DNA of 21,011 nt from positions 1-21,011 of the forward strand of contig ML978149.1 in assembly GCA_010015805.1 (NCBI GenBank), read 5' to 3'. Positions 1 through 21,011 of this stretch are shown in pieces. The DNA is from Rhizodiscina lignyota (taxonomy: Eukaryota; Ascomycota; Dothideomycetes; Aulographales; Rhizodiscinaceae). The notes below the pieces were generated by a model. It did no database searches and was not told the origin of the DNA. It saw only the letters and a program-made list of their open reading frames with translations. Numbering within the stretch: the stretch's first letter is position 1; each line of letters opens with the position of its first letter. The translations under genes and the position numbers were made by a program.

Positions 1-480
1 TCTTAAAAAATGATTTTTAAGTCTTTTAATTTAATAGAAAATAACTTAATAAATAGAGCTATTTTTAGAAATTTAATTATCCTATCTTATTATTTACTAT
101 TTAAAGTATAATATATTAAATTTTTATAGAAATAATCCTATTAGTTATTAATTTATAAAAGGTTAAAAACTATTATACGTAATACGCACGGTAATCTAGT
201 ATACGTAGCCGTCTAATCTCCTACATTTCTAATTTTAGAACCTACTACTCCTTACGGCTACTCGTATTATAACGTGTAGATAAATACTAACTAGGTAAAA
301 CCGTTATAATAAACACTTAAAATATGATTTCTAGTGCTATTATTACTTAAATCGTCTATTAGCTCTAGTACTATAGTTAATCGGATTATTTACATAGCTC
401 TAATACTATAATTAATCAGATCGTCTACTTAGCTCTAGTACTATAATTAATCAGATCGTCTTTTTAGCTAAGGCGCTAAT
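1..480. repeat. AT-rich, RIP-like left flank
   Basis: This stretch is very rich in A, T and TpA steps and nearly lacks CpA and TpG, the usual mark of repeat-induced point mutation in Pezizomycotina. No reading frame in it looks coding. The change to normal composition at about 480 is sharp, and the first gene lies just beyond it. It is probably a heavily mutated transposon or repeat, but nothing of the original element can be recognised. The composition is seen by eye and not computed. Confidence 0.75.
351..469. repeat. Tandem repeat of about 35 bases, about 3.4 copies
   Basis: Units begin at 351, 385, 420 and 455 (the last partial). Each has the form atcgtct-nn-tagctctagtactata followed by attaatcag, with a few substitutions. 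The second and third units are the most alike. The differences are mostly transitions between C and T or G and A, as RIP would leave. It lies inside the AT-rich flank. It could be a minisatellite or an internal repeat of a dead transposon. Confidence 0.75.
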
Positions 481-565: not shown

Positions 566-1726
566 TTACATCGGCAAACACAACGCCTTAGGAAGCGCCC
601 ACTTCGGAACCGACCAAGTAAGGAACCCCCAGGTCTATAGAAAGCCCATGAAAGACGCAACCCATGGAAACTCCATAATCAATCTAATCATTACGCTGTT
701 CTCGTACCAAAGCATCCTGCCAGCTAAGCCTTCAAACACAATAACGGCAGCGTTCAGTGAAAACCAAGCAATGTCTTCCCACCATCCGCAGCTAAACGCA
801 AGGGACCAAGTGACCAGAGCGTGAACGAATCCCGAGAAAAGGAATATTATAACCACATTCAGTGCGCGAGAAAGATGTGTGCGATTTCTCAGACGTAAGA
901 GATAGCGCAGTACCAATTTGCTCAAGCAAATGTACGTTGGGCCAACGAGCTGGTGCCAGAAGCCACCCCAGAAACCGCGGACCGAACGAGTAGCGCGGAT
1001 ATCACCAAAAAGAGGGGGCCACTCTTGGGCAGAATCCAACTGTAGCACCCAGATGGCCACAAAAGCCATGATGCTGTGAAAAAGGTTGTCGACCAGCCAG
1101 GTGCTCAGAACAAAGTCTGCAACTAGCAATAGTCGGAGAATTCCTTCGCCAATTGTGATGTTTGGCAGTCGTCGGGCGAACTTCGTCTTTTCAGTCAGAC
1201 CAGCTGCATACATTCCATCCTTCTGGGCGTTCTGAACAACTTTGCTGGCCAAGGTAGGCGCGTATGTAAAGTATACGTAAACCCCAGCAGTGAAGAGCAA
1301 ACACCGTGTTAGCTGACGAATCCAGGAACTGCTGCTACTTGAGAGAGCGGTTCGTTCTGGAGATGGTTTCGACTCTGAATTGGCCGGCCTTTTTATCCTT
1401 CGAGGATTGAAGAGCATCTTATACGCCGCAAGCCACGAAGCTGGAGCGGGGAGGTTTGGCTCGATAGTGTACGCCTCAATCACCAGAACACAGGAAATGT
1501 GAAGTTGCCAAATCGAAAGAAACAGTAGTATGATTGATTTCAACACTTCGTGGATAGGAATGATGCGTACTTCTTGAAAAGTTGCCATCGTAAATATGCC
1601 GATAATAGAAAGTAGCATCCACCGAGATGCTAGGCCCGTGATACGTAGACCCACGAGCGCCGTAGAAGATGCAACTGCGAAGTAGCTTGAAGCCAATAAT
1701 AACGAAGATAAGAGTGTGGAAGCCAT
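566..1726 (-). CDS. Wax-synthase-type membrane-bound O-acyltransferase (MBOAT)
   Basis: This is probably an integral ER-membrane enzyme that moves an acyl group onto a hydroxyl of a small molecule. Fungal wax-synthase-domain proteins of this kind acylate terpenoids and polyketides. Motifs, numbered from the ATG at 1724-1726, are EWPPLFGD (about 235-242), SVRGFWGGFWHQ (about 248-259) and FSGFVHAL (about 297-304), whose His is the likely catalytic residue. Several hydrophobic segments span the protein. The open frame stops at 635-637, but the next bases encode TWGFLTWSVPKW, which looks like the family's usual C-terminus. A 60-base phase-0 intron (635-694, GTAATG...CTATAG) would join it and end the gene at 566, giving about 366 residues. 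That last intron is inferred. The gene is divergent from the SEC11-like gene. The family is sure; the substrate is unknown. Confidence 0.88.
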
Positions 1727-2350
1727 GTTTCCTTTAGTCGAGTAACTCAAAATGTACGATCTATTTCGATGATGAAATCAATGTTATCGGCAATAAGTTG
1801 CGAGAAACATTCGTTACCAAACAGAATGTCCATAATCTGATTTTCATTCCGCATTAATAAATAGTGGGTTCTACCACATCTCTAAGCAGCATGTTAATCT
1901 GCCATGCTTACAGCTGTTCACATTAATTGAGATTCATTGAGGTTGTGGCTCACCGGCACGACCTGCCTAGACTATCCTATCGTACGGCCGTACGGAGTAC
2001 AAGCGCTACAATTTCGCATGATTCGGGTAAGGTCAGCGCTACTCCCTATGGCCGCGGCAGTTTTCAACCCATCAGCTGAAGAGACGATGTAGTCAATCAT
2101 GGGACTAGAAACTCTATCCTACTGAGTGTTTATTATGAGGATTCTGCCTATCTGACGTTTATTTGCCCGTTGAATATGCCCGTGGCGGCAGGGAGTAGCA
2201 GAGGTCGAGACTCGAGAGTGAAGCCGTCGGCGTCAGCTTCTCCTGCACCTATGTCTTCTAAGCGACGATTGAATCGTTTTCTCTGTCTCCATCTCCTATC
2301 TTCTGTGACTCTTATTGGATTCATTGAACTACACAGGTTCTGCGAAAGCA
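1727..2350. promoter_or_regulatory. Divergent promoter region between the acyltransferase and SEC11-like genes
   Basis: These 624 bases separate two genes that are transcribed away from each other, so both promoters must lie here. I find no convincing protein in it; the open frames are short and start without ATG or overlap the SEC11 frame. An AT-rich stretch at about 1852-1865 could serve the acyltransferase side. The clear feature is the palindrome at 1981-1994, described separately. Confidence 0.6.
1981..1994. promoter_or_regulatory. Perfect 14-base palindrome with CGG/CCG half-sites
   Basis: The sequence CGTACGGCCGTACG equals its own reverse complement. It carries inverted CGG and CCG triplets, the half-site type bound by dimeric Zn(II)2Cys6 regulators, the common pathway regulators of fungal metabolite clusters. 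It sits about 255 bases upstream of the acyltransferase ATG and about 357 bases upstream of the SEC11-like ATG, so one bound dimer could serve both. No regulator gene is present in the window. That it is bound is inference. Confidence 0.45.
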
Positions 2351-2875
2351 ATGTTGTCCTGCAAGTTCCTTCGACACATCCTCGTGTGTACCATTCTACC
2401 AATATCTGTTATTCTATTACAAAAACCACTACAATATGTGTCCCAGTCACGAACACCTATCGTTGTTGTAACATCAGGATCAATGGAACCAGTATTTTAC
2501 CGCGGAGACCTCCTCCTGGTATGGAATCGAGAGCAACACCTTCAAGTAGGCGACATCGCTGTTTGCTGGTTGCCCAGTGCAAAGCTTCCCATGGTTCACC
2601 GCATTATTGAAACGACAACAAAAGATTACGATCCAGCCCAGCAGCTGTTCCTGACGAAGGGCGACAATAACGTAGTCAACGATCGACAGCTCTATCCCGG
2701 CCAAAGGGCTTACCTTGACCGCTCTGACGTTGTAGGAATTGTCAAGGCTCACATTCCGTGGCTTGGGTGGCCGGCTGTTGCAATTAGTGAGATTTCTGGG
2801 CTAGAGGGACTTCTATGGTGCGTTTTGGGGTTGACAGTCTTCTTCTCTGGATGGCGAACAGTTGGCCAAAGCTGA
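2351..2875 (+). CDS. SEC11-type signal peptidase I, ER signal peptidase complex catalytic subunit paralogue
   Basis: This 174-residue, intronless gene encodes the serine protease subunit of the signal peptidase complex, which removes signal peptides in the ER membrane. It has one N-terminal membrane segment (about 8-24) and then the S26 core: SGSMEP with Ser44, VHR with His83, and KGDNN...ND with Asp105 and Asp111. Ser44 and His83 have the same numbers that I recall for the catalytic residues of yeast Sec11. A Ser-His pair instead of Ser-Lys marks the ER type. The ATG at 2351 is chosen because the open frame further upstream has no ATG. Length and motifs look intact, so it should be active. 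It lies 345 bases before the PKS on the same strand. It may be a second copy rather than the housekeeping SEC11; this cannot be settled from one window. Confidence 0.93.
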   Translation: MLSCKFLRHILVCTILPISVILLQKPLQYVSQSRTPIVVVTSGSMEPVFYRGDLLLVWNREQHLQVGDIAVCWLPSAKLPMVHRIIETTTKDYDPAQQLFLTKGDNNVVNDRQLYPGQRAYLDRSDVVGIVKAHIPWLGWPAVAISEISGLEGLLWCVLGLTVFFSGWRTVGQS

Positions 2876-3060
2876 ATGTTTGTTCTTTACGCGGAACATG
2901 CAGCAGTCGGCCCGACAGGGATATGGTGCATTTTCGAGCTGACAATCTTCGTCTCTGAAGGGTGGCCGGTTGGCCTGAGCTGAATGTCTATTCTGGTATT
3001 TTGATGCAATCTTCTTCTTCCAGGGGCGAACAGTTAGCCGAAGCTGACTTTCTATTCTTG
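2813..3060 (+). repeat. Three diverged tandem copies of the SEC11-like gene's 3' end
   Basis: The last codons of the SEC11-like gene (about 2813-2889) recur at about 2921-2995 and, shortened, at about 3002-3060. Shared landmarks are tatggtgc-n-tttt, gacaatcttc or gacagtcttc, the GGCGAACAGTT or GGCCGGTTGG block, and gctgaatgt or gctgactt. The landmark gctga lies at 2871, 2979 and 3043, so the offsets are 108 and 64 bases. Copies two and three lie outside the reading frame. This looks like old slippage or unequal exchange, and it fills most of the space before the PKS. Confidence 0.75.
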
Positions 3061-3220
3061 TACTTGCAGTTGATCAGTGATTGTGCCCGTCGACGTAGCC
3101 ATTCCTCACATAAAGAACAACACTGAGACGCTGTCACTCTATAGTGTGGCAACCAGACATAGGCTGGTTGAGAATACACTCTCTCAGGAGTCTATTTCCC
3201 CTTCTCTTTTGCTCAACGCA
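2876..3220 (+). promoter_or_regulatory. PKS upstream region
   Basis: These 345 bases lie between the SEC11-like stop and the PKS ATG and must hold the PKS promoter and leader. Much of it consists of the degenerate repeat copies described separately. I see no clear TATA box and no copy of the 1981-1994 palindrome. The frame that runs into the PKS from 3077 opens with GTG and has no upstream ATG, so it is read as leader. Confidence 0.5.
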
Positions 3221-6200
3221 ATGTCCACCAATAGTTCGAACAAGTTGCGGTATTCTTCGATAGACTCACCAGATCTCAGAGAACCCGTCGCAATATGTGG
3301 CATGGCAACACGCTTGCCCGGCAACATAGCTTCCCCAGAAGAGCTATGGGACTTTCTCCTGAAGAAAAAAGATGCTCGAAGCAAGGTCCCAGAGAGTCGG
3401 TTCAATATTGAAGCTTTCCTAGATCCGATGGGCCGACCGGGGACCACGACTGTTGATGCTGGATATTTTCTCGATCCCTCGGCCGTTGACTTGGATAGCT
3501 TTGACCTCAATGCATTCTCGATGACTCGCGCTGAGGTCATGGATCTTGATCCGGTGCAGCGGCAGTTGCTGGAGATCGTTCGCGAATGCCTCGAGAGCGC
3601 CGGTGAGCCTGAATGGGAAAGGCATGATACTGGATGCTTTGTGGGGTCTTTCGGTCAGGACTGGGCAGATCTAACCGCAAAAGACAGTCAGGCGCATGGA
3701 ATATATCGGGTGACAGGATCGAGTGATTTTATGTTGAGCAATCGGATCTCCTACGAGTACGATTTTCGAGGACCTAGGTTGGTATTATCTCCCCCAAAAA
3801 CACTTGTCTATGGTCAAGTTCTAACAGCCGATCTTAAAGCGTCACGTTTAGAACTGCCTGCTCAGCGTCTATGGTTGCACTTCATGCCGCCGTCCAAGCT
3901 CTACGGACTGGCGACTGCTCTGCAGCAATCGTTGCGTCAGCGAATTTGATTACTTCACCCGCCCTCACCATAGGGCTGTCCGAGATTGATGCTCTGGCAC
4001 CTGATGCTTCTTCTAAAACATTTGATGAAAGTGCTGACGGATATGCGCGCGGTGAGGCTGTTAATGCAATCTACCTCAAGCGCCTTTCCGATGCTATCAC
4101 CGATGGCAGTCCCGTGCGAGCTATCATCCGGGGTACAGCATCGAACGCCGATGGAAGGACGCTGTCTATAACGAACCCAAATCACAAGGCGCAGGTGGAT
4201 CTGATTCGTCATGCGTACTCCAATGCTGGCTTATCTCTAGACGACACCACGTTTGTTGAGCTACATGGGACCGGAACTCAGGCAGGAGACTGTACTGAGT
4301 CTAACGCCGTAGCCGAGGTTTTCTCGACTCACCGTCATGGTCAGTATATAGGCTCAGGAAAATCTCCCCGTGGTGTTAAGCTTAATGACTTGGAAGCTGA
4401 TGAGATATTTAGGTCAAGCCGAATGTCGGCCATGCAGAAGGCGCATCGGGCCTCACAAGCATTATCGCAAGCGTTCTAGCTTTGGAGCACAAAACTATTC
4501 CACCGAATATCAAATTCGAAAACCCTAACACTAAGAGTAAGACTGCGCAAGCGCCGTACTGTTGTTGCGCTCTGCTAAATATCGATATAGTACCTTTCAA
4601 GAAGGCAAAGCTCATTGTCCCAACTGAACCAACTCCATGGCCAGCCAATCGTTACGAGAGAGTGAGCATCAACTCATTCGGGCTGGGAGGTGCAAATTCG
4701 CATGTAAGTGTATTCAACAATTCTCTTCCATGTTCGAATAACGTGATCTCACAGTCGTCGTGGTGCAGGTAATACTAGACTCGGCGGCATCATTCGGACT
4801 GTATCAGCAGCAACAGCGTGTTGCAACGTCCAATCAACATCTTCTACTTTCCTCCGGTCACAGCCAAGGTTCCACTAATGAGAACGTATCGCGCTTGATC
4901 GAATACATTCAACAAGGCCGACCTAGATTAGATGACCTGGCGTTTACTCTCGGTCGACGGCGACAACACCTCTCATATCGGTCTTATTGCGTGGTCAACG
5001 AACAGAGAATTATTATAACATCTCATCCAATCAAGGCTCACGAGACTGCGAAAGTAGTGATGGTCTTCACAGGTCAAGGTGCTCAGTATCCAGGCATGGG
5101 CAAAGAGCTGGCCGAAACGTACCCGAGCTTCGACAACGACCTCCGCAAATTCGATGCTATCTTGTCATCAATACCAAACCCGCCGTCATGGTCAGTAAGA
5201 GGTCAGTCATGAGCAGCGTTTTCTTTTTCATCAATCATGTGTTGACTCTTAGATAGACACCATACTCCACTCATCTGAATCATCAATGACAGGAGTCATC
5301 TCGCAACCGCTCTGTATCGCCATCCAGATCGGACTAGTAAATTTATTACGTTCATGGGGCGTTACAACAGAGGCAGTTATAGGTCATTCAAGCGGCGAGA
5401 TCGCGGCTGCGTATGCAAGCGGAGCGCTATCCATGGCTGATGCCATTAGTCTGTCATATCGCCGTGGTAATAGTCTGCCGTCCGGTGCGAACGGGTCTAT
5501 GGTCGTTGTAGGTCTTCCTAAAGCTGAGGTTTTGCCGTACATGTTACCCGGTGGGACTATTGGCTGCGAGAATAGTCCTGTGAATATCACGATTTCTGGA
5601 GATGGATCTGTTTTGGACTCTGTCGTAACAAGAATTCAGAAGGAGAAGCCGCAGACCTTCATTCGACGCTTGCCAGTTGACATGGCGTATCATTCTCGTA
5701 AGTTATACCATGTTTCATCTTTCATAGTCTCAATAAACTAACAGACAAAGACCATATGGAATCTATTTCGCATGTTTACATGCGCGCTGTTCAAGACCTC
5801 CAATACGGGACTCCAAAGGTTCCGATGTATTCTACAACATTAGGCCGCAAAGTACAGGAAGGAGAGATCCTCGGTGCGGCATACTGGAGAGCCAATCTTG
5901 TCCAACCTGTACTGTTTGATACAGCGATCCGAAGCATCCTTGATGACAGCACTCTGTCAGGACACAAAGTTTTTCTCGAGATCGGATCCCATTCCGCGTT
6001 ACGAGGAACATTGAGGCAATGCTTTCATCAGCATTTACGAGGTAGCCAGGCGACATATGTCGCTACCTTAGTCCGGAAAGAACCAAGCGATATGTCTCTG
6101 CTCAATACCTTGGGACAGCTGCATTGTCTCGGCACTTCTCTAGCGCTAGGTGCGATCTTCCCAACCAAACAAATCTTGACGGATTTGCCTCCATACTCTT

Positions 6201-9200
6201 GGAATCGAGAGAAGGTCATTAGGGAGAAACGTACCTCCAACGCATGGAGACATCGCAAATTTCCTCGACATGAGCTACTCGGCGCACCTGTTTTGGAGCA
6301 GAACGAACTTGAGCCGGTCTGGCGCAATGTCTTCCGCCTCCAAGATGTGTTGTGGATTCACGATCATCAGGTGGACTCCAATATAGTCTTCCCTGCTGCC
6401 GGATATGTTGCCATCGCCGGTGAAGCCATTAGACAGATTTGCGGTGGTACCATAGATGGCTACGATGTGCGACACCTTTCTGTCGCGGCGGCCATCATTC
6501 TTCGCGAAAACACAACGACGGAGATCATGACGAGCCTTAAACGAGCGCGGTTGTCGGATGCCGAAGTTTCATCGTGGCATGACTTTACCGTATCGTCCGT
6601 CCAGAAAGGCAACTGGGTCCAGCATTGTTGGGGTCAGGTCCGGGCTTCGACGCAGCCTCTGCATTCTGCCTTTTCTTCAGCCGTTGCAGTGCCTTTCTCA
6701 AGAAAGGTCTCGCCACAGAAGTGGTATCATGCTTTGAGTCGTACCGGACTACACTATGGGCCGGCATTTGCAAAGTTAAAGCAGATTTCGGCGGCTGTTG
6801 ACGAACATGCAGCGAGTGCGATGATTACTTACGACTGGCCAGCAGGCGCTGACTATATCCTTCACCCGACAGCTCTTGACTTGATATTTCAGACTCTACA
6901 GGTAGCTGATGTGCACGGAAAATCCACGAGCCTCTCCGGAATATTTGTGCCAACGTACTTGGAGGAACTCAGCGTGAGAAGATCCTCTTCCAAATTGTTT
7001 GTACAAGCCAATGTCCATTCATCCACCGCAACAGAAGGCGTCGGTATGAAGGGTTACTGTGTCGGTTGGGCAGATGGCGGCGGCGTCGTCGTCAAAGGGT
7101 CATGGTTTGCGCATGTCTCAGCTCAGCAACGGTTATGAAGATGCCAGGAGAGCCACAGACCTGATCACCGGGTCAGAAATGATCTGGATGCCGAGCTTGG
7201 AGTATCTGAGTAGCGAGGAAAAGAAGGGGCTGATCCTCACGACCCACGACGTCTCATCTGTCCAAGAAACATTGGAAGAGATGGCCTTATTGACAATGAG
7301 CCAGCACTTTGAAACTCTATGTGCACGAGAGGCGCGGAAACCTCATCTGGAGAAGTTTCGGCAATGGATACTTTCGACAGTACGAGAATTGCAAAAGTCT
7401 CACCATCCAGTGTGGCCTGGCCTCGAAGTGCCGGTCTCAGACTTGGATCTGAGTAAACCCAACGAAATCCATCTCGAAGAAAGAAAAAGGGCTCTACGAC
7501 ATGCAGTCACTCTTCGCGATCAAGCTGGTACCGGCACTGGCGCTGTCGATGTAGTGATACGTATTGGTGAATGCCTGTTGGATATCATAGATGACAAAGT
7601 CTCGACACTCGAGCTCCTCTCGGAAAACGACTTGTTTGGGAGATACTATCGCTTCGGGAAATTGTTCGACTACCGTCCATTCTTGAAGCACCTCATCCAC
7701 GAACGGCCAACATGCAACATCCTTGAAATCGGAGCCGGAACGGGCAGTATCACTGCTAGCATCCTACCAAATCTATACTCAAGTAATGGTAACCGCCTGT
7801 TCTCGACGTATACATTTACAGACATCTCGGAGGGGTTCCTGTCACTTGCAAAGAGCAACTTCCAGCAACACCACGGCATGAGATACCAGGTATTTGACAT
7901 AACTTTAGATCCCGATGGGCAAGGCATTCCAACACAATTCTATGACCTGGTCATTGCAAGCAACGTGGTCCATGCTACACCAGCTTTGCATGCATCCTTG
8001 ACCAATGTTCGGAAAGTGTTACAGCCTAGCGGATATTTGTTATTGCAGGAGCTCCGCAATGATTCATTCTATAACTCCTTCGTGATGGGCGGCTTGGAAA
8101 GGTGGTGGCTTAGAGGAGATGATGACAGAGAAGAAACGCCATACGTTGGCCCAGTAAAGTTGGCAGCCGAGTTGAAAAGGGCTGGATTTGCTGAACCTGA
8201 GATTTCATTAAGGGACCACCAGGATTTGCGCCCGGGAGCCATCAGCGCACTCCTGATTGCGCGTTCAAATGTTTACCAGCCGGCGAATGGTCATTTGGAG
8301 TCTGGAAAGGTCACAATTGTCGTCAACTCGGTTGATTTGGACATCGTCCGACTGATCGAAAACAATTTCGCCACGCATGGCATTATCGTCGATTTCTGTC
8401 AATTCGCACTGGGCGATATGCCTGCAAATAACCAGGACATGATCTCTCTCCTCGACATTGATGGCCCCTTCCTATTGGACATCAATGCTGACGATTTTGA
8501 GCGTTTGAAACACATTTTAACAACCATGGACCCCAACAGCCACCTTCTTTGGTGCACACAGTCGTCACAGTTCCCGGGCATGTCTCACGATCCGTCATAC
8601 GCACCTATACTTGGTTTAGCACGGAGCTCCCGATTCGAGCTTGGAATAGACTTCGCAACCCTTGAGACAGACCTTCCTCTCACTCCTTCGTTTGCTAAAA
8701 TGATTCCCTCTTTCTACACTAAGTATCGTGGGCATCGGGGTGTAGCAAGAGACGGAGGTTCTGGGACAGCAGACTATGAATTTGCATTTGCCAACGATAC
8801 TGTCCACATTGGCCGGCATGATTGGTACTCTTTAAAGTCAAAGAACTTTAACTCTGGCGAAGGTGTACCAATGGATGTTCGAACCCTTTCCATTAATCGC
8901 AAAGGAGCGCTTCAAACTCTGTGTTGGAAGGCGACGGGACATTTGACCCTATCTTCCAGCGATGTTAGAGTCAAAGTGGCGTATATTGGTCTGAATTTTC
9001 GGGTAACGTATATTCTGATGTGGGCCGTCGAGTTTGTGGACTTATTCGTATTAGGATTTGATGGTAGCCATGGGAGTCATTACTGCTGGTGATCTTGGAC
9101 TGGAGATGGTGGGTACCGTAGTTGAAGCTGGACCGGCGGTAATTCGGTTCAAACCTGGCGACCTCGTGGTGGTACTAATGCCTGGATGTTTTGGAACGGA

Positions 9201-11416
9201 AATTGTCGCTTCGGATCGACACTGTGTGCAGATACCAGACGGTCTCAGCTTTAAAGATGCTGCCTCCATGTATTCAGTATTCTGTACATCACTTCTGGCG
9301 CTGATCGATACCGGCAGGCTTCGAACCGGTCAGGTAAGGCACACAGAGGGAACTTTCTAGTAGCAGATGCTGATCAACTGTCACAGAGTGTGCTGATCCA
9401 CTCGGCATGTGGTGGTATTGGACTAGCAGCAATTCAGCTGTGCCAGTCCTTTGGAGTTGAGGTAAGATCAACTCTCTTAGATATATTGCTCGTGGAGACT
9501 AACGTGAGAAATAGACATTTGTAACTGTCGGAAACAAGAATAAAGCCAGGTACCTCCAAGAGCATTTCAAAGTCCCCTCGGATCACATATTCGATTCTCA
9601 CAGCACTTCATTTCGTGAGATGCTTTTAGCTAAAACACAGAATCGAGGTGTCGATCTCGTCCTCAATTCACTCGCAGGAGAGTTGCTTCAAGCTTCGTGG
9701 GATTGTGTTGCGGACTTTGGTATGCTTATCGAGCTCGGAAAGAGAGATATTCAGACGAGAGGCAAACTTGATATGTTCAATTTTAGCCACAATCGAGGAT
9801 ATTATGCTGTGGACTATGAGCAAATTCTCACAGACAAGCCTGGCGTAAACTTGAGGTATGTGCCTAGGTTGATGATTTTAGGTGAATAATTAATGACCAA
9901 TTAACTTAGGATCATGGAAAGAGTCTCGGACTTTTATCATCAGGGAATCATCAAACCACTTCCTCTGAAGGTGTTCCCGGCAAAGGAGGTTGAGCAATGT
10001 TTCCGAGCCCACCAAAAAGGAGAGCACATCGGCAAGTTACTCGTGGAAATGCCTGTTGATCCTTCCAATCTACCCGTGGATGGGAATCTGACCCAAAAAT
10101 CGATCGCTTTCGATCATACTGCAGCCTACCTTCTTGTTGGCGGTTTGGGTGGCATCGGTCGCTCTGTGGCAATCTGGATGGCCGAGCACGGAGCAAAGCA
10201 TATAATATTTGTTTCGCGTTCCAAAACGGCAGAGACAGCTAAGCAGGCGTACGCCAACTTCTTCGAAGAGCTCGAAGCCTTGAGCTGTGAGTACATTGTA
10301 ATCCATGGAGATATTACAGTCGCTGGCTTTGTGGAAGGAATCATCAATAAGACGACGATTGACATACGGGGCGTGCTTCAACTGGCGATGGAGTTGAACG
10401 ACAGCAGCCTTTCATCGATGACACACGAACAGTGGCAAGCAACCGTATCTCCGAAGGTCGCAGGAACGCTAAACATTCACAATGCATTTACGTCATCAAA
10501 TGCATTGCCGTTAGATTTCTTCGTCATGTTTGGTTCCCATAATGGATTGCATGGCTGGTTTGGGCAATCAAACTATGCAGCAGCAAACGCGTTCGTCGAC
10601 GCATTTGTCGAATATCGGCATCGACAGGGTTTGGCAGCGTCTGTAGTGGACCTGGGACCAGTAGACGACATTGGTTTCGTTAATGAGCGGCCGGAGGTGG
10701 CATCTAAGATGCGATCTACGTTCAAATACTTCCTGCCGGAGAAAGAGCTTCTTCACGCAACAGAGATTGCCATTGCAAGGTCAAATCCCTGAGACTTGCA
10801 GCCCATTTCAATAACCCAGTCGAAGTACTTCGCGTCGAACCGCAGCCAGATCATCGCCGGACTGAGGCCAAGCGTTGCACATGGCGAAAACGGCTCTGGA
10901 GACAGCAACCTTCCCTGGCAGGGAGATTCACGATTTCTTGCATTCCGAAATATTGAAGCTGATCTAGGGTCTGGATATGATATCAGCAGTCCAGGACCAG
11001 CGTCTGAGTCTAAAGACAAAGCACTCAGTTTTCTTTTGTCATTGTGCTCTCAAGAATCGTCAATATTGCACGAACAGCCCCTGCGGAGTATTCTGGTACC
11101 CGGTTGTGGGGAGCAGACGGCGCTTCAGGTTGTTTCTGGGGCCATATTCGACAGAATTTGTATATTCTTGGACCTCTCCGATACGAAGAAAGATGAGCTC
11201 GTGCAGCTTGCTGCGCCATCGTCAGTGTCCTTGTTAACCCTGGGCCTTGACTCTCTGGTGGCCATTGAGCTACGCAACTGGTGGAGACAGAGGCTAAGAC
11301 TTGAGATCTCGGTGCTTGAAATCATGGAGAAAAAATCCATTGAGAAATTGGCGCAACATGCACTAGATGGTCTGGCTGCTCATTTTCCTCAGTCAAATGG
11401 CCAGATAACGAGCTAG
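3221..11416 (+). CDS. Highly reducing type I polyketide synthase (KS-AT-DH-MT-ER-KR-ACP), apparently disrupted
   Basis: This large iterative enzyme would build a reduced, alpha-methylated polyketide from malonyl-CoA, using SAM and NADPH. The ATG at 3221 is the first in frame. Ten introns fit by frame and homology: 3778-3839, one ending at 4412, 4537-4590, 4704-4768, 5195-5252, 5698-5744, 9003-9054, 9334-9386, 9462-9514 and 9856-9909. Most have good GT..AG ends and lengths of 47-65 bases. The spliced frame is about 2550 codons, normal for the family. There is no thioesterase, reductase or condensation domain after the ACP, so release must happen in trans. Three faults stand out: no GT at the expected donor of intron 2 (4357), a one-base frame offset in the run at 7094-7099, and an in-frame TGA at 10790-10792. 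All catalytic motifs are otherwise kept, so any decay is recent, or the faults are assembly errors. The product cannot be named. Confidence 0.95.
3286..4780 (+). other. PKS ketosynthase (KS) domain
   Basis: This domain performs the decarboxylative condensation. It opens with [14 protein letters not shown]. The active-site Cys is in RTACSAS (codon 3859-3861), just after intron 1. The first His is in [11 protein letters not shown] (4264-4266) and the second in VKPNVGH (4431-4433), just after intron 2. It closes with [11 protein letters not shown]. All three catalytic residues are present. The join at intron 2 is the weak point. Confidence 0.95.
5056..6015 (+). other. PKS acyltransferase (AT) domain
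   Basis: This domain loads malonyl units onto the ACP. It begins with [13 protein letters not shown], which leads into FTGQGAQ-type sequence normal for fungal ATs. The nucleophile Ser is in GHSSGE (codon 5388-5390). The AYHS motif ends the exon at 5697. Two introns (5195-5252 and 5698-5744) interrupt it. It looks complete. Confidence 0.94.
6268..7115 (+). other. PKS dehydratase (DH) domain
   Basis: This domain removes water from the beta-hydroxyacyl intermediate. The catalytic His is most likely that of [15 protein letters not shown] (codon 6365-6367); the Gly common in the HxxxGxxxxP motif is Ser here. The catalytic Asp is in [10 protein letters not shown] (codon 6878-6880). The reading frame changes near the domain's end at 7094-7099. 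Confidence 0.92.
7590..8265 (+). other. PKS C-methyltransferase (MT) domain
   Basis: This domain adds a methyl group from SAM to the alpha carbon of the growing chain. The SAM-binding glycine motif ILEIGAGTG is at 7720-7746, followed by [11 protein letters not shown] and the post-motif ASNVVHAT. The fold runs on through LLLQEL and [17 protein letters not shown]. It looks intact, so at least one methyl branch is expected in the product. It is in the frame used after the 7094-7099 offset. Confidence 0.92.
8935..10065 (+). other. PKS enoylreductase (ER) domain
   Basis: This NADPH-dependent domain saturates the double bond. It begins with [14 protein letters not shown], split by the intron 9003-9054. 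The cofactor motif is in [16 protein letters not shown], an exon of only 75 bases (9387-9461). [19 protein letters not shown] and the closing [21 protein letters not shown] follow. Its presence makes the enzyme fully reducing without a partner ER. Confidence 0.93.
10108..10789 (+). other. PKS ketoreductase (KR) domain
   Basis: This domain reduces the beta-keto group with NADPH. The nucleotide-binding motif is [12 protein letters not shown], followed by FVSRSK. The catalytic Ser and Tyr lie in FGSHNG and [11 protein letters not shown]. The domain is complete up to AIARSNP, where the in-frame TGA at 10790-10792 interrupts the linker to the ACP. Confidence 0.93.
11085..11395 (+). other. PKS acyl carrier protein (ACP) domain
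   Basis: This domain carries the growing chain on phosphopantetheine. The attachment Ser is in [14 protein letters not shown] (codon 11252-11254). It is the last domain, and the frame stops at 11414-11416. It lies after the in-frame TGA, so with that stop read as such the synthase would lose its carrier and be inactive. Confidence 0.92.
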
Positions 11417-11513: not shown

Positions 11514-12494
11514 CTAATGTAAAACAGGGAAGCATTTCTTGAACGATTCCCGCTCTCCCACCTTTGACCACCACAACTTTATCTTAGCCCCAATTGTGAA
11601 CCCATGATCAGATATTTGAAGGAGCTTCTCTAAAGGCTCGAAATCCGTCACCTGGCTTCCACCCGCACCCCACATTGCATGTGACAACCACGGAATGATA
11701 TGAAGATCCGCCAACGTTAGCTCATCTCCCGCTGCGTACGGAAGGACAAGAAGAGAGTCCAGTTGTTGCAAGCCAGCCGCAAAGTCGCGGAACATTGCAT
11801 CTGACTGTGTGAAAAAGGTCTGATGGTCTTCTCCGACTGGACTGTTATAGAGTTTGTTGACCGCTCCGTTCATGCGAATTCTTGGTTTGTAGAACGCGTC
11901 CAGCTCAGGATTCTCTCCACCATATTTCTCTAATTTGGCTTGTCGATTGCGCAAGAATTCGTTCCACATGCTGCTTTGCTTCTTCTCCATCTCTTCTTTG
12001 TTACGAGCATGCAACAGGATCAAGTTGGTGCCCATTTGATCGGAATGAACGAGACCAATGAGTCTCTGCATGACCTCACGCGTTCGAGTGTCTATTGGAG
12101 TCAATGAAGTCCCCGCCAGTCGCTGGTCGAGATAATTTAGGATCTCCGTCGAATCAACAAGAGGTTTTGGGAGGGACTTTGTCGTCAAGGATGGGATCGT
12201 TCCGTTTGGATTAATCTTCACATAGTCAGGATGGAAGTTCTCTCCGCCAACTAATCACCATTAGCATCTTCAAACTATTCTAAGGCGCACTACTCTTACA
12301 AAGGTCAATTTCTTCAATCTTGTATTCGTCTTCTTTCATGTCCTTCTCTGCAAGACCGAGTAGAGGAACGCCGGCCCATTGAGACGCTGTCGATGAATAC
12401 ACAGTAACCTTTGAATCATTTCCTGTTAGCCCTCAAATAGCCCAACAATGGACATCGCAACTGGCCATGGAAATCCTACCTGATTGTTTGCCAT
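11514..12494 (-). CDS. Glutathione S-transferase-like protein
   Basis: This is a cytosolic, 286-residue GST-family protein that may conjugate glutathione to a reactive small molecule. The ATG is at 12492-12494. Three exons (12494-12480, 12408-12300, 12250-11514) join in phase across introns of 71 and 49 bases, with donors GTAGGA and GTAAGA. The thioredoxin-like N-terminal part begins MANNQVTVYSS and includes INPNGTIPSL with the cis-Pro and DSTEIL for the glutathione glutamyl end. The C-terminal helical domain carries LTLADLHIIPWL. The first exon is only 15 bases. The gene converges on the PKS with 97 bases between the two stops. A role in detoxifying or tailoring the polyketide is inferred from position only. 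Confidence 0.88.
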
Positions 12495-13456: not shown

Positions 13457-14596
13457 TTAGAATGCAGTCAAACCAGATGCGCCGTTGTTGACTGGCAGAC
13501 CCTGACCTCGTCCGAAAACTCCCAGATTCCTGAGCGAACCGTCATTTTCCACCGCCCAGCCTTGCACAGCGCCAGTCCCCCGCAAAAGATCATACAGAAA
13601 AGCTCCGTCCGCCGACACCGCAAGATCAACTGGGTTGCTGTCAATGCCGGGATTCGCAGCGACATCCTTGAGGATGCTGACCGCGCCGTTGGGGCTGACA
13701 GTGTAAGAGGCAATCGTGCCACTGACGAAGTTGGCAGTGAAAGCAAACTGCTGCTTGCGTCCAGCAAGTATGACCCAGCAGCCATCAGTCTGCTGATTCT
13801 TTTCGGACTTTGTGATGGGCTTCAGCGCCCCGGTCGAAGTATCAACGTGGTAGGTGGAAACTGCAGCGTTGGTGAAAACAGGAAGGCCAGATTCGACGAC
13901 GAAAAGCGTTCCATCCTCACGGAACTGTGCTCCGAAAGGACGGTTACCTGAAGACGCGCTGATGGTGATAGGGCCGGTTGCTTCGCCATTCCTGTCGATG
14001 TTGAAGAAGTCGATTGTGCTGCCCACTTTGTTTGTGACGATCAAGCCTTTGCCATCGGGGCTGAACTGAATGGTACCTGGGACGCCGATTGGGGTGCTGG
14101 TGGGAATCGTGGTGTTGCCAATCGCAGCGAGCTTGCCATCACGGCCCACCTCATAGCCTCGAATGCCAGTGGTCGCTACCGATCCGTCCAGAACGTAGGC
14201 AAAGCGCTCATTGAGGGTGATGCTCAAGGGCTGATCGCCTCCGTAGATGACTTGGATCCTCTCAAGACAGGAACCGGAGACGGAAAACACGCTAACCCTG
14301 TCGTCCGAGGGACTGATAGCATATAGGAAGCGGTGATCGCGGCTCAATTGTAATCCGCCTTGCGTATCAAAGTCGACTCCTTGACCTTTACCACCAGTAG
14401 AGTATTCCCCAGTCTGCGTGAGCTTGCCAGTGCGGTCTCGTGAGAATGCAATGACCTTGTTATCATCTGGTGCATTAGTCAACGCAAAAGCTGCACCAAC
14501 TTCACCGGAAGGCTTCCTGCAATGTATGTTTACTGCATGAACGACACTGGATGCGAATGCAAGAGCACCAATAATAGCAGTGACTGAAGGTCTCAT
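13457..14596 (-). CDS. Secreted lactonase-type seven-bladed beta-propeller protein
   Basis: This 379-residue protein belongs to the 3-carboxymuconate cyclase / 6-phosphogluconolactonase-like beta-propeller family. It starts with a signal peptide (about 1-21, ending VVHA), so it is likely secreted. The propeller shows as repeated blades such as QLSRDHRFLYAISPSDDRVSVF, PGTIQFSPDGKGLIVTNK and DLAVSADGAFLYDLL. The gene has no introns and a natural end, LPVNNGASGLTAF. Members open or close lactone rings, but many fungal secreted ones have no proven substrate. It could belong to the polyketide cluster, or it could be an unrelated neighbour. A tatattatag stretch at 14648-14657 may be its core promoter. 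Confidence 0.9.
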   Translation of the reverse strand: MRPSVTAIIGALAFASSVVHAVNIHCRKPSGEVGAAFALTNAPDDNKVIAFSRDRTGKLTQTGEYSTGGKGQGVDFDTQGGLQLSRDHRFLYAISPSDDRVSVFSVSGSCLERIQVIYGGDQPLSITLNERFAYVLDGSVATTGIRGYEVGRDGKLAAIGNTTIPTSTPIGVPGTIQFSPDGKGLIVTNKVGSTIDFFNIDRNGEATGPITISASSGNRPFGAQFREDGTLFVVESGLPVFTNAAVSTYHVDTSTGALKPITKSEKNQQTDGCWVILAGRKQQFAFTANFVSGTIASYTVSPNGAVSILKDVAANPGIDSNPVDLAVSADGAFLYDLLRGTGAVQGWAVENDGSLRNLGVFGRGQGLPVNNGASGLTAF

Positions 14597-17287: not shown

Positions 17288-18172
17288 ATGTTTCACGTCA
17301 AGGCCGCTTGCATTTTTCTTCTCGCACAAACACTCATTGCATCTCCTATTGACTTGGAAGCAAGACAGAGCTGCCCAAACATTCATGTATTTGGCGCTCG
17401 AGAGACGACTGCTCCAGCCGGTTATGGATCTTCTGGCACGGTGGTCAACTTGATCCTCAACGCTCATCCCGGAGCGACCTCCGAAGCCATCAATTACCCG
17501 GCGTGCGGAGGACAGAGCAGCTGCGGCGGTGTTAGTTATGCAAACTCGGTTGTTCAGGGAATCAGTGCTATTACCAGCGCAGTGAATTCGTTCAACAGTC
17601 GTTGTCCGAGTACGCAACTTGTTTTGGTCGGCTACTCACAGGTACGCGTCGAGGAATTTTCTTGCTCAAGAAACACCTGCAGGTTTACAAGGCACTGACA
17701 AACACATGCAGGGCGGTCAAATCACAGATGATGCTCTGTGTGGCGGCGGAGATCCAAACGAGGGATACTCCAGCACGGCCGTCACCTTCTCCGCATCAGC
17801 ATTGAACATGATTAAAGCAGCCATATTCATGGGAGATCCTCGCAATGTCGCTGGACTCTCATACAATGTTGGTACTTGCGCTGCCGGCGGAGTAAGTGTC
17901 CATGTCTTATCCCACTTGCACTTCCATCCCTGGTTTCTGCATTCTCCCATCGGTCTTGCGTCAATGTGAAATGGAATTCCCTTGCTGACCAGTTGCTCCA
18001 GTTTGACGCCCGTCCGGCTGGATTTTCTTGCCCGAATGCCAGCAAGATCAAATCGTACTGCGACTCCTCGGATCCGTACTGCTGTAATGGCAACAATGCT
18101 GCAACTCACCAAGGATACGGCAGCGAGTACGGCCAAGCAGCATTGACCTTCGTCAACAGCAAGCTGTCATAA
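17288..18172 (+). CDS. Acetylxylan esterase, carbohydrate esterase family 5 (cutinase fold)
   Basis: This secreted serine esterase removes acetyl groups from xylan in plant cell walls. Three exons (17288-17641, 17712-17891, 18002-18172) give 234 residues. The introns are 70 and 110 bases. A signal peptide (about 1-18) and a short propeptide ending EARQ precede SCPNIHVFGARETTAP. The catalytic triad is Ser117 in GYSQGG, Asp202 in SDPYCC and His214 in ATHQGYG. The spacings of 85 and 12 residues match those I recall for Penicillium acetylxylan esterase II. Many Cys residues (PACGG, SSCGG, TCAAGG, PYCC) fit the family's disulfides. It has no carbohydrate-binding module. The first intron splits the GYSQ/GG motif. 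It looks intact and unrelated to the polyketide genes. Confidence 0.95.
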
Positions 18173-19372
18173 CCCTGGACGATCATGGATTAACCAAAGC
18201 CTTCGTCTGCGTGCTCTTTTGATCCCTTATGACTCTTAATGCCCGGAAGCAGGCGAAGGTATGGCGCTCAATCCTGCATGAACATTGGTTTCCCTGTATA
18301 TATCTTGATGTAAATACGAGCTTGCGATCCAACATACATACAAGCATGGATCCATCGGCACAGAGACCTTTTCCAACTGAGGAGGTCTGTTGTTGCAGAG
18401 CCACAGGTTGATCAGCCACTGATCAAACTTGACAATGTAATCCGTCGCTCAACTGATTGATCCCCACTGCGAACAAGCGTGGACTCATTAAATACGTTGT
18501 TTCTATTGTTAGATAGTGATACCAAACGTGCTCTCTTAACCTTTGACACGACTCCGGAAGCTCAGAGGTCCTGCTCTCGCTCACAAATACTTGTGAACTT
18601 GTGCGACCTCGTTGAGACCTCGTTGAGAATATCATCTGTTAGCAGAGTTTTGGAGAAGCTCTAATTTGATTAGACTCGTCACAGCCTATAGGAATTCGGC
18701 CCATATCCAAAGGCTGCTCGATGATGAATAGAGAGGTAAGTGTATCCTCATCTTCCTTCCTTTTGCGGATGATTCATTCTACAGCCCTCGTGCAAGATTG
18801 ACGAAGGAGGAAAAGACCACGAATCAAGCATTCCTCGCACAGCAATAAGGAAAGCGAAGGGCCTTCCATAGATTGATAAAGTTCGTCAAGGTTAACTCTT
18901 CTTGAATCAACGATTTGGCTATTTGACTTTGTGTTGACGGTTCTCGGTGCCAGCTCGTGCGCGATGTGAACGTCGCTCGAATAGCTGTATAAACTTCCGC
19001 AACGTCATGAAATTCCGCGTCGCAATAAATCATCTCAATCCAGTATACTCTATTTGAGTTCATCTCAAATTATTATTGTCCAAAAGAAGCTTTTTCGGCC
19101 GTAGAGCTGTGAAAAGGGAAGATTACTGATCGTGCTGCGGAATAGTGAACATCTTCAACGTCGACGCAGGTTCACGCTCGCAACACAGGCAATTTATGCT
19201 GAGTGATCGTTTCTCCGCATCTGAGATCATTCCAAGGTTATTTGCGCCTTTTTGATACCTCGGTCGTAAGCTCGATTTTCTGCGCTGAAATTACGAAACG
19301 CGTCGTGGAACTCTTCTCGTCCGGCTTTCGAGATATTGAAAGACGACCATTTCACAGACAGAAGGTATCACA
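18173..19372. other. Intergenic, no convincing gene
   Basis: No open frame here exceeds about 80 codons, and none carries a recognisable motif. There is a small direct repeat (gacctcgttga twice at about 18605-18626). The last few hundred bases must hold the promoter of the metallo-hydrolase gene at 19373. Confidence 0.6.
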
Positions 19373-20245
19373 ATGGCAGAACTTCGTGCAGCAGTTTATA
19401 TTGCACCGCCGATTCTATTTGCTTCGCCCAGCGGTAAAGGCAAAGGCGGCGTCTGGTCGCCGATTTCATGCACTCTTGTTTACGCTGCCAATGAAGCTGT
19501 TCTTGTCGACACACCGATTACCATCAAACAAACCGAAGAGCTGATAAGTTGGATCAAACGAATTGCGCCCGGCCGCAAGCTGTCGTACATCTACATCACG
19601 CACGGACATGGAGACCACTTCTTCGGAATCCCACAGCTGTTAAAAGAGTTCCCAGAGGCGGTGGCTGTTGCAACAGCAGGGACAGTGGCACATATGGAAC
19701 AGCAGATCCAAGAGAAGGAGTATCATGATACATGGGAAGTCCGCTTCCCCGGACAAATCTACCGACCATTCAAGCTTGCCGATCCATTACCGTCGAGGAA
19801 CGAATTTCGCCTTGCGAATCGCTGGCTTTTCCGCGCCATTGAGTGCGGCCACTCAGATACATACTCGTCCACAGCGCTTTGGCAACCCGATCTCAAGCTC
19901 GCCGTCTGCGGTGACGTGGTGTATGGACAGGTGCACCAGATGCTGGGTGAGGCGAACACAAAGACCAAGCGTGAAGAATGGATTCGAGCGGTCGAGAAGA
20001 TCGAAGCACTCGATCCAGCATATGTCGTGCCAGGCCATTGTCAAGCAGAGGAGATCCATGGCGCGTGGCACCTTACGAATACAAAGAAGTATCTTGTCGA
20101 TTTTGGAGAAGTGCTAAAGACTGCGAAAGACCGAAGAGCGGTTATCGAAGGCATGAACAAATTGTATCCTGACCGATTCAATCCTGCTGCGTTGATAATG
20201 AGCGCTGTTCGCGCGTTCGAGGTGCCAAAGAAGGCTAGGATTTAA
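19373..20245 (+). CDS. Metallo-beta-lactamase-fold hydrolase
   Basis: This 290-residue, intronless protein has the metal-binding set of the superfamily: THGHGDH at 76-82 (His77, His79, Asp81, His82), His160 in ECGH, Asp181 in CGDVVYG and His222 in PGHC. All expected zinc ligands are present, so it should be active as a hydrolase of an ester, thioester, lactone or similar bond. There is no signal peptide, so it is likely cytosolic. The ATG at 19373 has a good context (caca before ATG). Some fungal members of this fold release polyketides from non-reducing synthases, but this one lies 8 kb from the PKS and I cannot assign it to that group. It ends within about 20 bases of the AT-rich right flank. 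Confidence 0.93.
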   Translation: MAELRAAVYIAPPILFASPSGKGKGGVWSPISCTLVYAANEAVLVDTPITIKQTEELISWIKRIAPGRKLSYIYITHGHGDHFFGIPQLLKEFPEAVAVATAGTVAHMEQQIQEKEYHDTWEVRFPGQIYRPFKLADPLPSRNEFRLANRWLFRAIECGHSDTYSSTALWQPDLKLAVCGDVVYGQVHQMLGEANTKTKREEWIRAVEKIEALDPAYVVPGHCQAEEIHGAWHLTNTKKYLVDFGEVLKTAKDRRAVIEGMNKLYPDRFNPAALIMSAVRAFEVPKKARI

Positions 20246-21011
20246 GCTATAAGTAGAAAAGAACTGATAATAAAGCGACAGAGCAAATCTAAAGCGAATT
20301 TAAGTCGATTTAAGAGCGATTTCTAAGTAGCTTAAAAAACTTTTAAAGCTACTTAAGTATTCTACTCTAAAACGTGTTATATTCCCGTAACTTTACCTAC
20401 CTACCCTCCTTATTACTACCCTAGAACGCGTCGCCTTCCTAATTTTACTTACCTACCCCTTATATTATATATATAGATTATATCGCGATTTACTACCCTT
20501 TAGGAACCTATTATAAATCCTTTTCCTCTTTTCTTCCTTTTCCTCCCCCTAAATCTAGGCTTATATAGCCTATATACTATATACCTATCTATACTTAATA
20601 ATAACTACTTTAACTACTATTATACTATTAATTTAATTATACTAATCTTTTTTTTAATCTCTTTTATATTTACTTACTTACTTATTCTTTCTTTTTCTCT
20701 CTCTTTCTTTCTAAGCTTATTATCTCTTAAAAATAATATTTTAAGCTCTTATTAATAAAACTAAGCTATTTAGCTACTAGGACTCTTTTATAAGTATAGA
20801 CTAATACGTATATTCGCTCTAGTTACTATGTAACTACAAGTTGTTTTAGTAGCTAGTATATAGTCCTCCTCCTAAAACTATATATTTAGATCCCTACTAA
20901 AACCTTATATTATCTAAAAGTAACTAAACTAATCTATACTTTTATAACGCTCTTTTTTAACTAGTCTAATAATATTAGCGTACTTAAAGAGTAGTAGTAG
21001 TAGAAAGAGTA
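20246..21011. repeat. AT-rich, RIP-like right flank
   Basis: Composition falls to mostly A and T directly after the metallo-hydrolase stop, with many TpA steps and very few CpA or TpG. From about 20380 to 20710 the given strand is markedly pyrimidine-rich. No coding frame is visible. It probably marks the start of a RIP-mutated repeat block, the mirror of the left edge of the window. The original element cannot be named. Confidence 0.75.
20325..20354. repeat. Inverted repeat with short loop
   Basis: Arms at 20325-20337 (aagtagcttaaaa) and 20341-20354 (ttttaaagctactt) are inverse copies with one base extra. They could fold into a hairpin about 80 bases after the metallo-hydrolase stop, at the edge of the AT-rich block. 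It may be a 3'-end signal or a leftover transposon end; AT-rich DNA also gives such pairs by chance. Confidence 0.4.

Follow-up and report, generated by a model that had tools for sequence, protein, structure and literature searches.

A second SEC11 gene beside a highly reducing polyketide synthase on a fungal contig: a candidate self-resistance copy of signal peptidase

The SEC11 gene between an acyltransferase and a polyketide synthase

The window analyzed here is an entire contig (C29; 21,011 bases) of a 33.4-Mb genome in 29 contigs, fungal judging by its gene content. It carries a gene for a SEC11-type protease, the catalytic subunit of the signal peptidase complex (SPC), which sits between the genes of an O-acyltransferase of the MBOAT type and a highly reducing polyketide synthase (PKS). 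These features are arranged as follows:

635 to 1726, minus strand: MBOAT_2 (wax-synthase-type) O-acyltransferase, 363 amino acids from the ATG in a single frame (PF13813, E 5.2e-17, over the cut-off)
1727 to 2350, no strand: 624 bases separating the MBOAT and SEC11 starts, which point away from each other
2351 to 2875, plus strand: SEC11, signal peptidase catalytic subunit, 174 amino acids, intronless (hereafter the window SEC11)
3221 to 11416, plus strand: highly reducing PKS with ketosynthase (KS), acyltransferase (AT), dehydratase (DH), methyltransferase (MT), enoyl reductase (ER), ketoreductase (KR) and acyl carrier protein (ACP) in the order KS-AT-DH-MT-ER-KR-ACP; eleven inferred junctions, Pfam run on separate exon pieces
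4357 to 4412, plus strand: 56 nt in the KS coding region that lack a GT donor; the other ten of the eleven junctions are GT..AG; exons left unjoined

The original prediction described an intact SEC11-type protease 345 bases from the PKS and sharing a promoter region with the acyltransferase; its coordinates and spacing hold. The SEC11 stop codon ends at 2875 and the PKS ATG lies at 3221 in the same direction, while the MBOAT ATG at 1726 is on the opposite strand. No shared regulatory motif was established in the 624-base region between MBOAT and SEC11. The gap between SEC11 and the PKS contains degenerate direct repeats (2814-3065): the last codons of SEC11 with its 3’ flank (2814-2886) recur at 2922-2994 with 78% identity, and a 59-nt unit is found at 2835, 2943 and 3007. 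From their sequence, these repeats resemble incomplete tandem duplicates of the 3’ end of SEC11 that have since decayed.

The window SEC11 matched human SEC11A (E 3.5e-28) and SEC11C (E 7.8e-28) among PDB sequences over residues 10-164, and scored 82.5 bits with NCBIfam TIGR02228 against a cut-off of 51.85. Its sole Pfam match was Peptidase_S24, just below the cut-off (21.6 vs 23.3), as was that of the second SEC11 of this genome on contig C8 (22.3; see below). Ser44, His83 and Asp111 align with human residues 56, 96 and 122, and Asp105 is also kept; we take the human catalytic numbering to be His96, Asp116 and Asp122. An AlphaFold2 model, built from 21 sequences including 20 prokaryotic rows, had a mean pLDDT of 76.8 and a pTM of 0.69, with a weak C-terminal helix (56, 52 and 36 in the last three blocks). 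Foldseek with this model returned 7p2q_A (E 5.2e-10) and 7p2p_A (E 1.3e-9) at the top, followed by bacterial signal peptidases and LexA-type folds. The position of the human catalytic Ser56 is also given in the available part of the report on the human SPC structure (PMC13385932). By whole-domain similarity and the Ser-His-Asp residues, we assign the protein to the SEC11 family; its assembly into an SPC and its cleavage of signal peptides are predicted. The similarity to SEC11 is not due to chance, and the adjacency to the PKS could be. We ruled out a pseudogene, given the open frame and the kept catalytic and pocket residues, and an assembly duplicate, given that window positions 2200-3220 match only themselves in the genome.

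Exon-wise Pfam analysis of the PKS recovered KS, AT, DH, methyltransferase, ADH_N (part of ER), KR and ACP; the ER call is based on ADH_N in one exon, and the scan covered the exons other than 9387-9461 and 9515-9855 of the ER region. At 10 of the 11 inferred junctions, removal of a GT..AG intron of 47-66 nt keeps the reading frame open from one exon to the next. The remaining 56 nt at 4357-4412 must be removed because the Ketoacyl-synt_C profile, which covers its positions 2-83 before 4357, continues with positions 84-118 after 4412. The GT-donor introns listed for this junction were rejected, since they delete or replace conserved KS residues; possible explanations for the segment are a lesion, non-canonical splicing and an error in the consensus. 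The raw frames had suggested a frameshift near 7100 and a stop codon near 10790; a PKS disrupted in this way was likewise rejected, as GT..AG introns fit at both places (7099-7147 and 10780-10845), with the boundary of 7099-7147 uncertain since other introns there also keep the frame. The AT-DH piece (5756-7138, 460 amino acids) has psoA and LovB among its solved PDB relatives, and its best match elsewhere in the genome is 32% identical. Save for the 4357-4412 junction, the gene thus reads as a predicted highly reducing PKS with KS, AT, DH, ER, KR and ACP in one reading unit.

A separate SEC11 on C8 and the divergence of the window copy

Whole-genome searches with the protein (E up to 10) and with the TIGR02228 profile each revealed two SEC11 loci, the window and C8 at about 1,770,986-1,771,630. 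The original prediction had set a search for a second SEC11 beforehand as its check, and had named the lack of one as its main refutation; because C8 carries a separate SEC11, that refutation fails, and the possibility that the window gene is the only, housekeeping copy of the genome is ruled out. The C8 gene also encodes 174 amino acids and has one intron (1737-1856 of locus L010), in contrast to the intronless window copy. It adjoins a gene with a JAB/MPN domain, with a sacsin-domain gene a few kilobases off, a setting of the housekeeping type. The partner SPC subunits are each found at one locus, SPC25 on C5, SPC22 on C10 and SPC12 on C12.

The two copies differ as follows. First, the window SEC11 is 38.6% identical to the C8 SEC11 (64/166) and 37.6% identical to human SEC11A (56/149), whereas C8 and SEC11A share 53.7% (80/149). 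Second, the window copy keeps 46 of the 75 columns common to SEC11A, SEC11C and C8, while C8 changes 7 of the 53 columns common to SEC11A, SEC11C and the window copy. The change rate of the window copy is therefore about four times that of C8 (29 vs 7 columns, binomial p 0.0003). Third, the divergence is greatest in the membrane segments, where 13 of 20 columns common to SEC11A, SEC11C and C8 are changed in the window copy, compared to 16 of 55 elsewhere (p 0.007); both p values are rough, as the outgroup consists of two close human paralogues and a single fungal copy was compared. Likewise, over residues 26-46 plus 146-175 the C8 copy agrees with SEC11A at 23 of 51 positions and the window copy at 10 of 51, and over the remainder at 57 and 46 of 98, respectively. 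At last, GC at third codon positions is 0.70 in the C8 SEC11 and 0.48 in the window SEC11, close to the values of a PKS exon (0.52) and MBOAT (0.51). This cluster-like codon use suggests that the gene has spent some time in such a setting and does not imply joint function.

We then compared the residues that contact the substrate. In the available part of the 2026 report on the human SPC with a bound signal peptide, the S3 pocket is formed by V50, V52, V84, P93 and V95, the S1 pocket by M57, F61, V52 and V95, and five backbone contacts in the groove by V51, L53, S54, P93 and V95 (PMC13385932). The same source describes two highly conserved gatekeepers, W36 in the first transmembrane segment and T153 in the bowsprit helix, at the passage from the h-region to the c-region of the signal peptide, and states that their precise role is still to be addressed (PMC13385932). 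A comparison of the substrate pockets had been proposed with the original prediction, and its outcome was divided: all seven distinct S1/S3 pocket residues and the catalytic residues are kept in the window SEC11, so that no difference lies there, whereas neither of the two gatekeepers is kept (W36 to Q24, T153 to A142), and C8, SEC11A and SEC11C keep both. Of the five groove contacts, the window copy alters one, L53 to Thr. The corresponding codons, assigned by sequence alignment (gatekeepers according to PMC13385932), are:

2420 to 2422, plus strand: Gln24, at the position of the human gatekeeper Trp36
2480 to 2482, plus strand: catalytic Ser44, at the position of human Ser56
2774 to 2776, plus strand: Ala142, at the position of the human gatekeeper Thr153

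The gate positions were assigned identically after adding 20 prokaryotic relatives. Of 50 prokaryotic loci found, 24 were read as full frames, and 20 of these entered both the alignment for the fold model and the tally of gate residues; in the viral contigs searched, there was no SEC11 relative. Trp36 is absent from all 19 prokaryotic relatives with a residue there (two have Gln), and position 153 is Thr in 8 and Ala in 3 of the 20. The fold and catalysis therefore do not need the gate; a window copy that lacks it can still be functional, and losing the gate is not necessarily an adaptation. The Trp36/Thr153 pair is typical of eukaryotic SEC11 without strictly defining it, and membership of the window SEC11 in the wider family is unaffected.

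Compared to human SEC11A and SEC11C (PDB 7p2p, 7p2q, 9rjb), the window copy thus has the same family, catalytic residues, S1/S3 pockets and predicted fold, and differs in W36 to Q, T153 to A, L53 to T, its diverged membrane segments and its PKS neighbour. On the alignment, the chemistry and the -1/-3 pockets are conserved, and the shift lies in the part that recognises the h-region within the membrane. The gate change is a possible resistance-type difference, but a different choice of substrates or a loosening of constraint would account for it as well as escape from an inhibitor in the membrane.

A candidate self-resistance gene for the polyketide product

Of the explanations considered, we favor the one in which the window SEC11 is a second SPC catalytic subunit that protects the fungus from what the neighbouring PKS makes, with a rough probability of 0.4. 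It is consistent with the intact second SEC11, its placement between MBOAT and PKS, the partner subunits found at one locus each, the kept active site and pockets, the replaced gatekeepers, the concentration of changes in the membrane segments and the PKS-like codon use; these hint at a polyketide that attacks the SPC, with a spare SEC11 protecting its maker. It is accepted practice to read a duplicated housekeeping protein in a cluster as a sign of self-resistance, and the available part of the genome survey that states this gives 413 families of clusters with such proteins from 2544 genomes (PMC12616698). The SEC11 pair corresponds to this sign, with the second homologue on C8 and a copy 345 bases from the PKS; a further filter in the survey is occurrence in more than one genus (PMC12616698). 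In addition, signal peptidase is a known target of a fungal metabolite (PMC6958371).

In this scheme, the PKS and the MBOAT acyltransferase would make a reduced, methylated, lipid-like polyketide, which would block the housekeeping Sec11 from C8 in the membrane path that holds the h-region of the signal peptide. When the cluster is on, the window Sec11 would also be made and would pair with the single-locus SPC12, SPC22 and SPC25. With unchanged catalytic residues and -1/-3 pockets it would still be able to cleave signal peptides, and the differences in its gate and membrane segments would let it escape the inhibitor. The lipid-like nature of the product, the SPC as its target and the protection by the window copy are what we infer here. 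The narrower version of this scheme, in which the product enters the transmembrane window of the SPC and is held at the Trp/Thr gate, with the window SEC11 escaping by both gatekeeper replacements while keeping catalysis and the -1/-3 pockets, is in our view unlikely, and we lowered our estimate for it slightly because of the prokaryotic gate count.

Self-resistance copies linked to fungal clusters include acetolactate synthase (pts), a proteasome subunit (fellutamide) and HMG-CoA reductase (lovastatin-type). The window SEC11 resembles these in being a housekeeping enzyme present twice in the genome, with one of the genes in or beside a cluster (PMC12616698, PMC10734572), and differs in that the target would be the signal peptidase of the endoplasmic reticulum and that the product, the resistance and any recurrence of the pair are hypothetical. 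Cavinafungin demonstrates that a fungal metabolite can hit signal peptidase, according to the available part of PMC6958371. However, cavinafungins are linear peptides, whereas the window carries a PKS, with no peptide synthetase recognised among the scanned proteins. Within the titles and abstract beginnings of open-licence PubMed Central literature, we found no report of a fungal biosynthetic cluster that carries a copy of SEC11 or of signal peptidase, although the supplementary list of PMC12616698 may already hold the case, and no cavinafungin resistance residues for comparison.

Resistance copies in fungal clusters can disclose the target of a compound before its isolation. If the self-resistance reading is true, it predicts a fungal polyketide that blocks signal-peptide cleavage in the endoplasmic reticulum; if escape at the gate is also true, we know of no earlier self-resistance gene for signal peptidase, and the enzyme could then be blocked by something other than a peptide. 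The window SEC11 is also a natural eukaryotic enzyme with both gatekeepers replaced, which offers a direct test of the role of the gate.

Contig setting and alternative explanations

The rest of the contig contains the following features:

11514 to 12250, minus strand: main exon of a gene resembling glutathione S-transferase (GST), with GST_N_3 just over and GST_N_2 just under the cut-off (PDB 1e6b, E 8.6e-05)
13457 to 14596, minus strand: lactonase-like beta-propeller (PF10282), 379 amino acids in a single frame, adjoining the GST-like gene
from 17288, plus strand: cutinase gene (Pfam scan)
19373 to 20245, plus strand: metallo-beta-lactamase-fold protein (Pfam scan)
20300 to 21011, no strand: AT-rich repeat of subtelomeric type at the right contig end, with matches near other contig ends

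The cutinase and metallo-beta-lactamase-fold genes (17288-20245, plus strand) are probably outside any cluster. The last 712 bases of the window match at least 14 other places in the genome; none of the 14 found is more than 46 kb away from the end of a contig, and for 13 of them the distance is at most about 15 kb. Both window ends have a GC content of 0.25 with high TpA/ApT, and the window end looks like a subtelomeric repeat resembling the outcome of repeat-induced point mutation (RIP).

Fungal clusters are often housed in subtelomeres. The setting therefore cuts both ways, since subtelomeres often hold such clusters yet also shuffle genes. The self-resistance reading was strengthened by the second SEC11 and the replaced gatekeepers, and is weakened by the subtelomeric-type setting and the PKS junction without a GT donor. 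Several observations weigh against it. The contig end is of the type where unrelated genes mix, and the KS part of the PKS holds the aberrant junction at 4357-4412. The window proteins scanned included no recognisable transcription factor, P450 or transporter. The copies diverge widely and not just at the gate, and a general faster change of the window copy is also expected from drift. Moreover, the gate Trp is missing from the prokaryotic relatives anyway.

The strongest alternative, tentative in itself and still a serious contender, is that an old, diverged SEC11 paralogue came to lie beside the PKS by chance in a shuffled subtelomere and has no role in the cluster, perhaps with a minor or condition-specific signal peptidase role. 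The repeat shared with other contig ends fits this, and so do the identity values, by which the window copy is no nearer to C8 than to human SEC11A, and the cutinase, metallo-beta-lactamase-fold and lactonase-like genes, which have no evident link to a polyketide. The position of SEC11 between MBOAT and PKS and its cluster-like codon use are harder to reconcile with a chance neighbour, and a function is likely to have been maintained, given that every pocket and catalytic residue is still in place.

Rather improbable, in our judgment, is a decaying cluster whose PKS is no longer correctly made, with SEC11 as a leftover resistance copy or a paralogue drifting under weak constraint. Such decay would be consistent with the KS junction, the AT-rich RIP-like flanks, the degenerate repeats upstream of the PKS that partly copy the 3’ end of SEC11 and the accelerated change of the window copy (29 vs 7 columns). 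However, the remaining PKS exons have open frames and hit the expected domain models, the window SEC11 is intact and has its catalytic residues, and a consensus error or non-canonical splicing could account for the single junction. There is a slim chance that the window SEC11 is a Sec11 paralogue whose changed membrane gate serves other substrates (e.g. membrane proteins of the pathway) instead of resistance, as the gatekeepers and the membrane segments that contact the h-region are changed most and the human SPC likewise exists in two forms with different Sec11 paralogues, but a substrate within the cluster did not come to light, and Trp and Thr stand at the gate in both human paralogues.

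At the other end of the contig, window positions 1-223 have a single match in the genome, 94% identical, on the opposite strand at C3:3236575-3236797.

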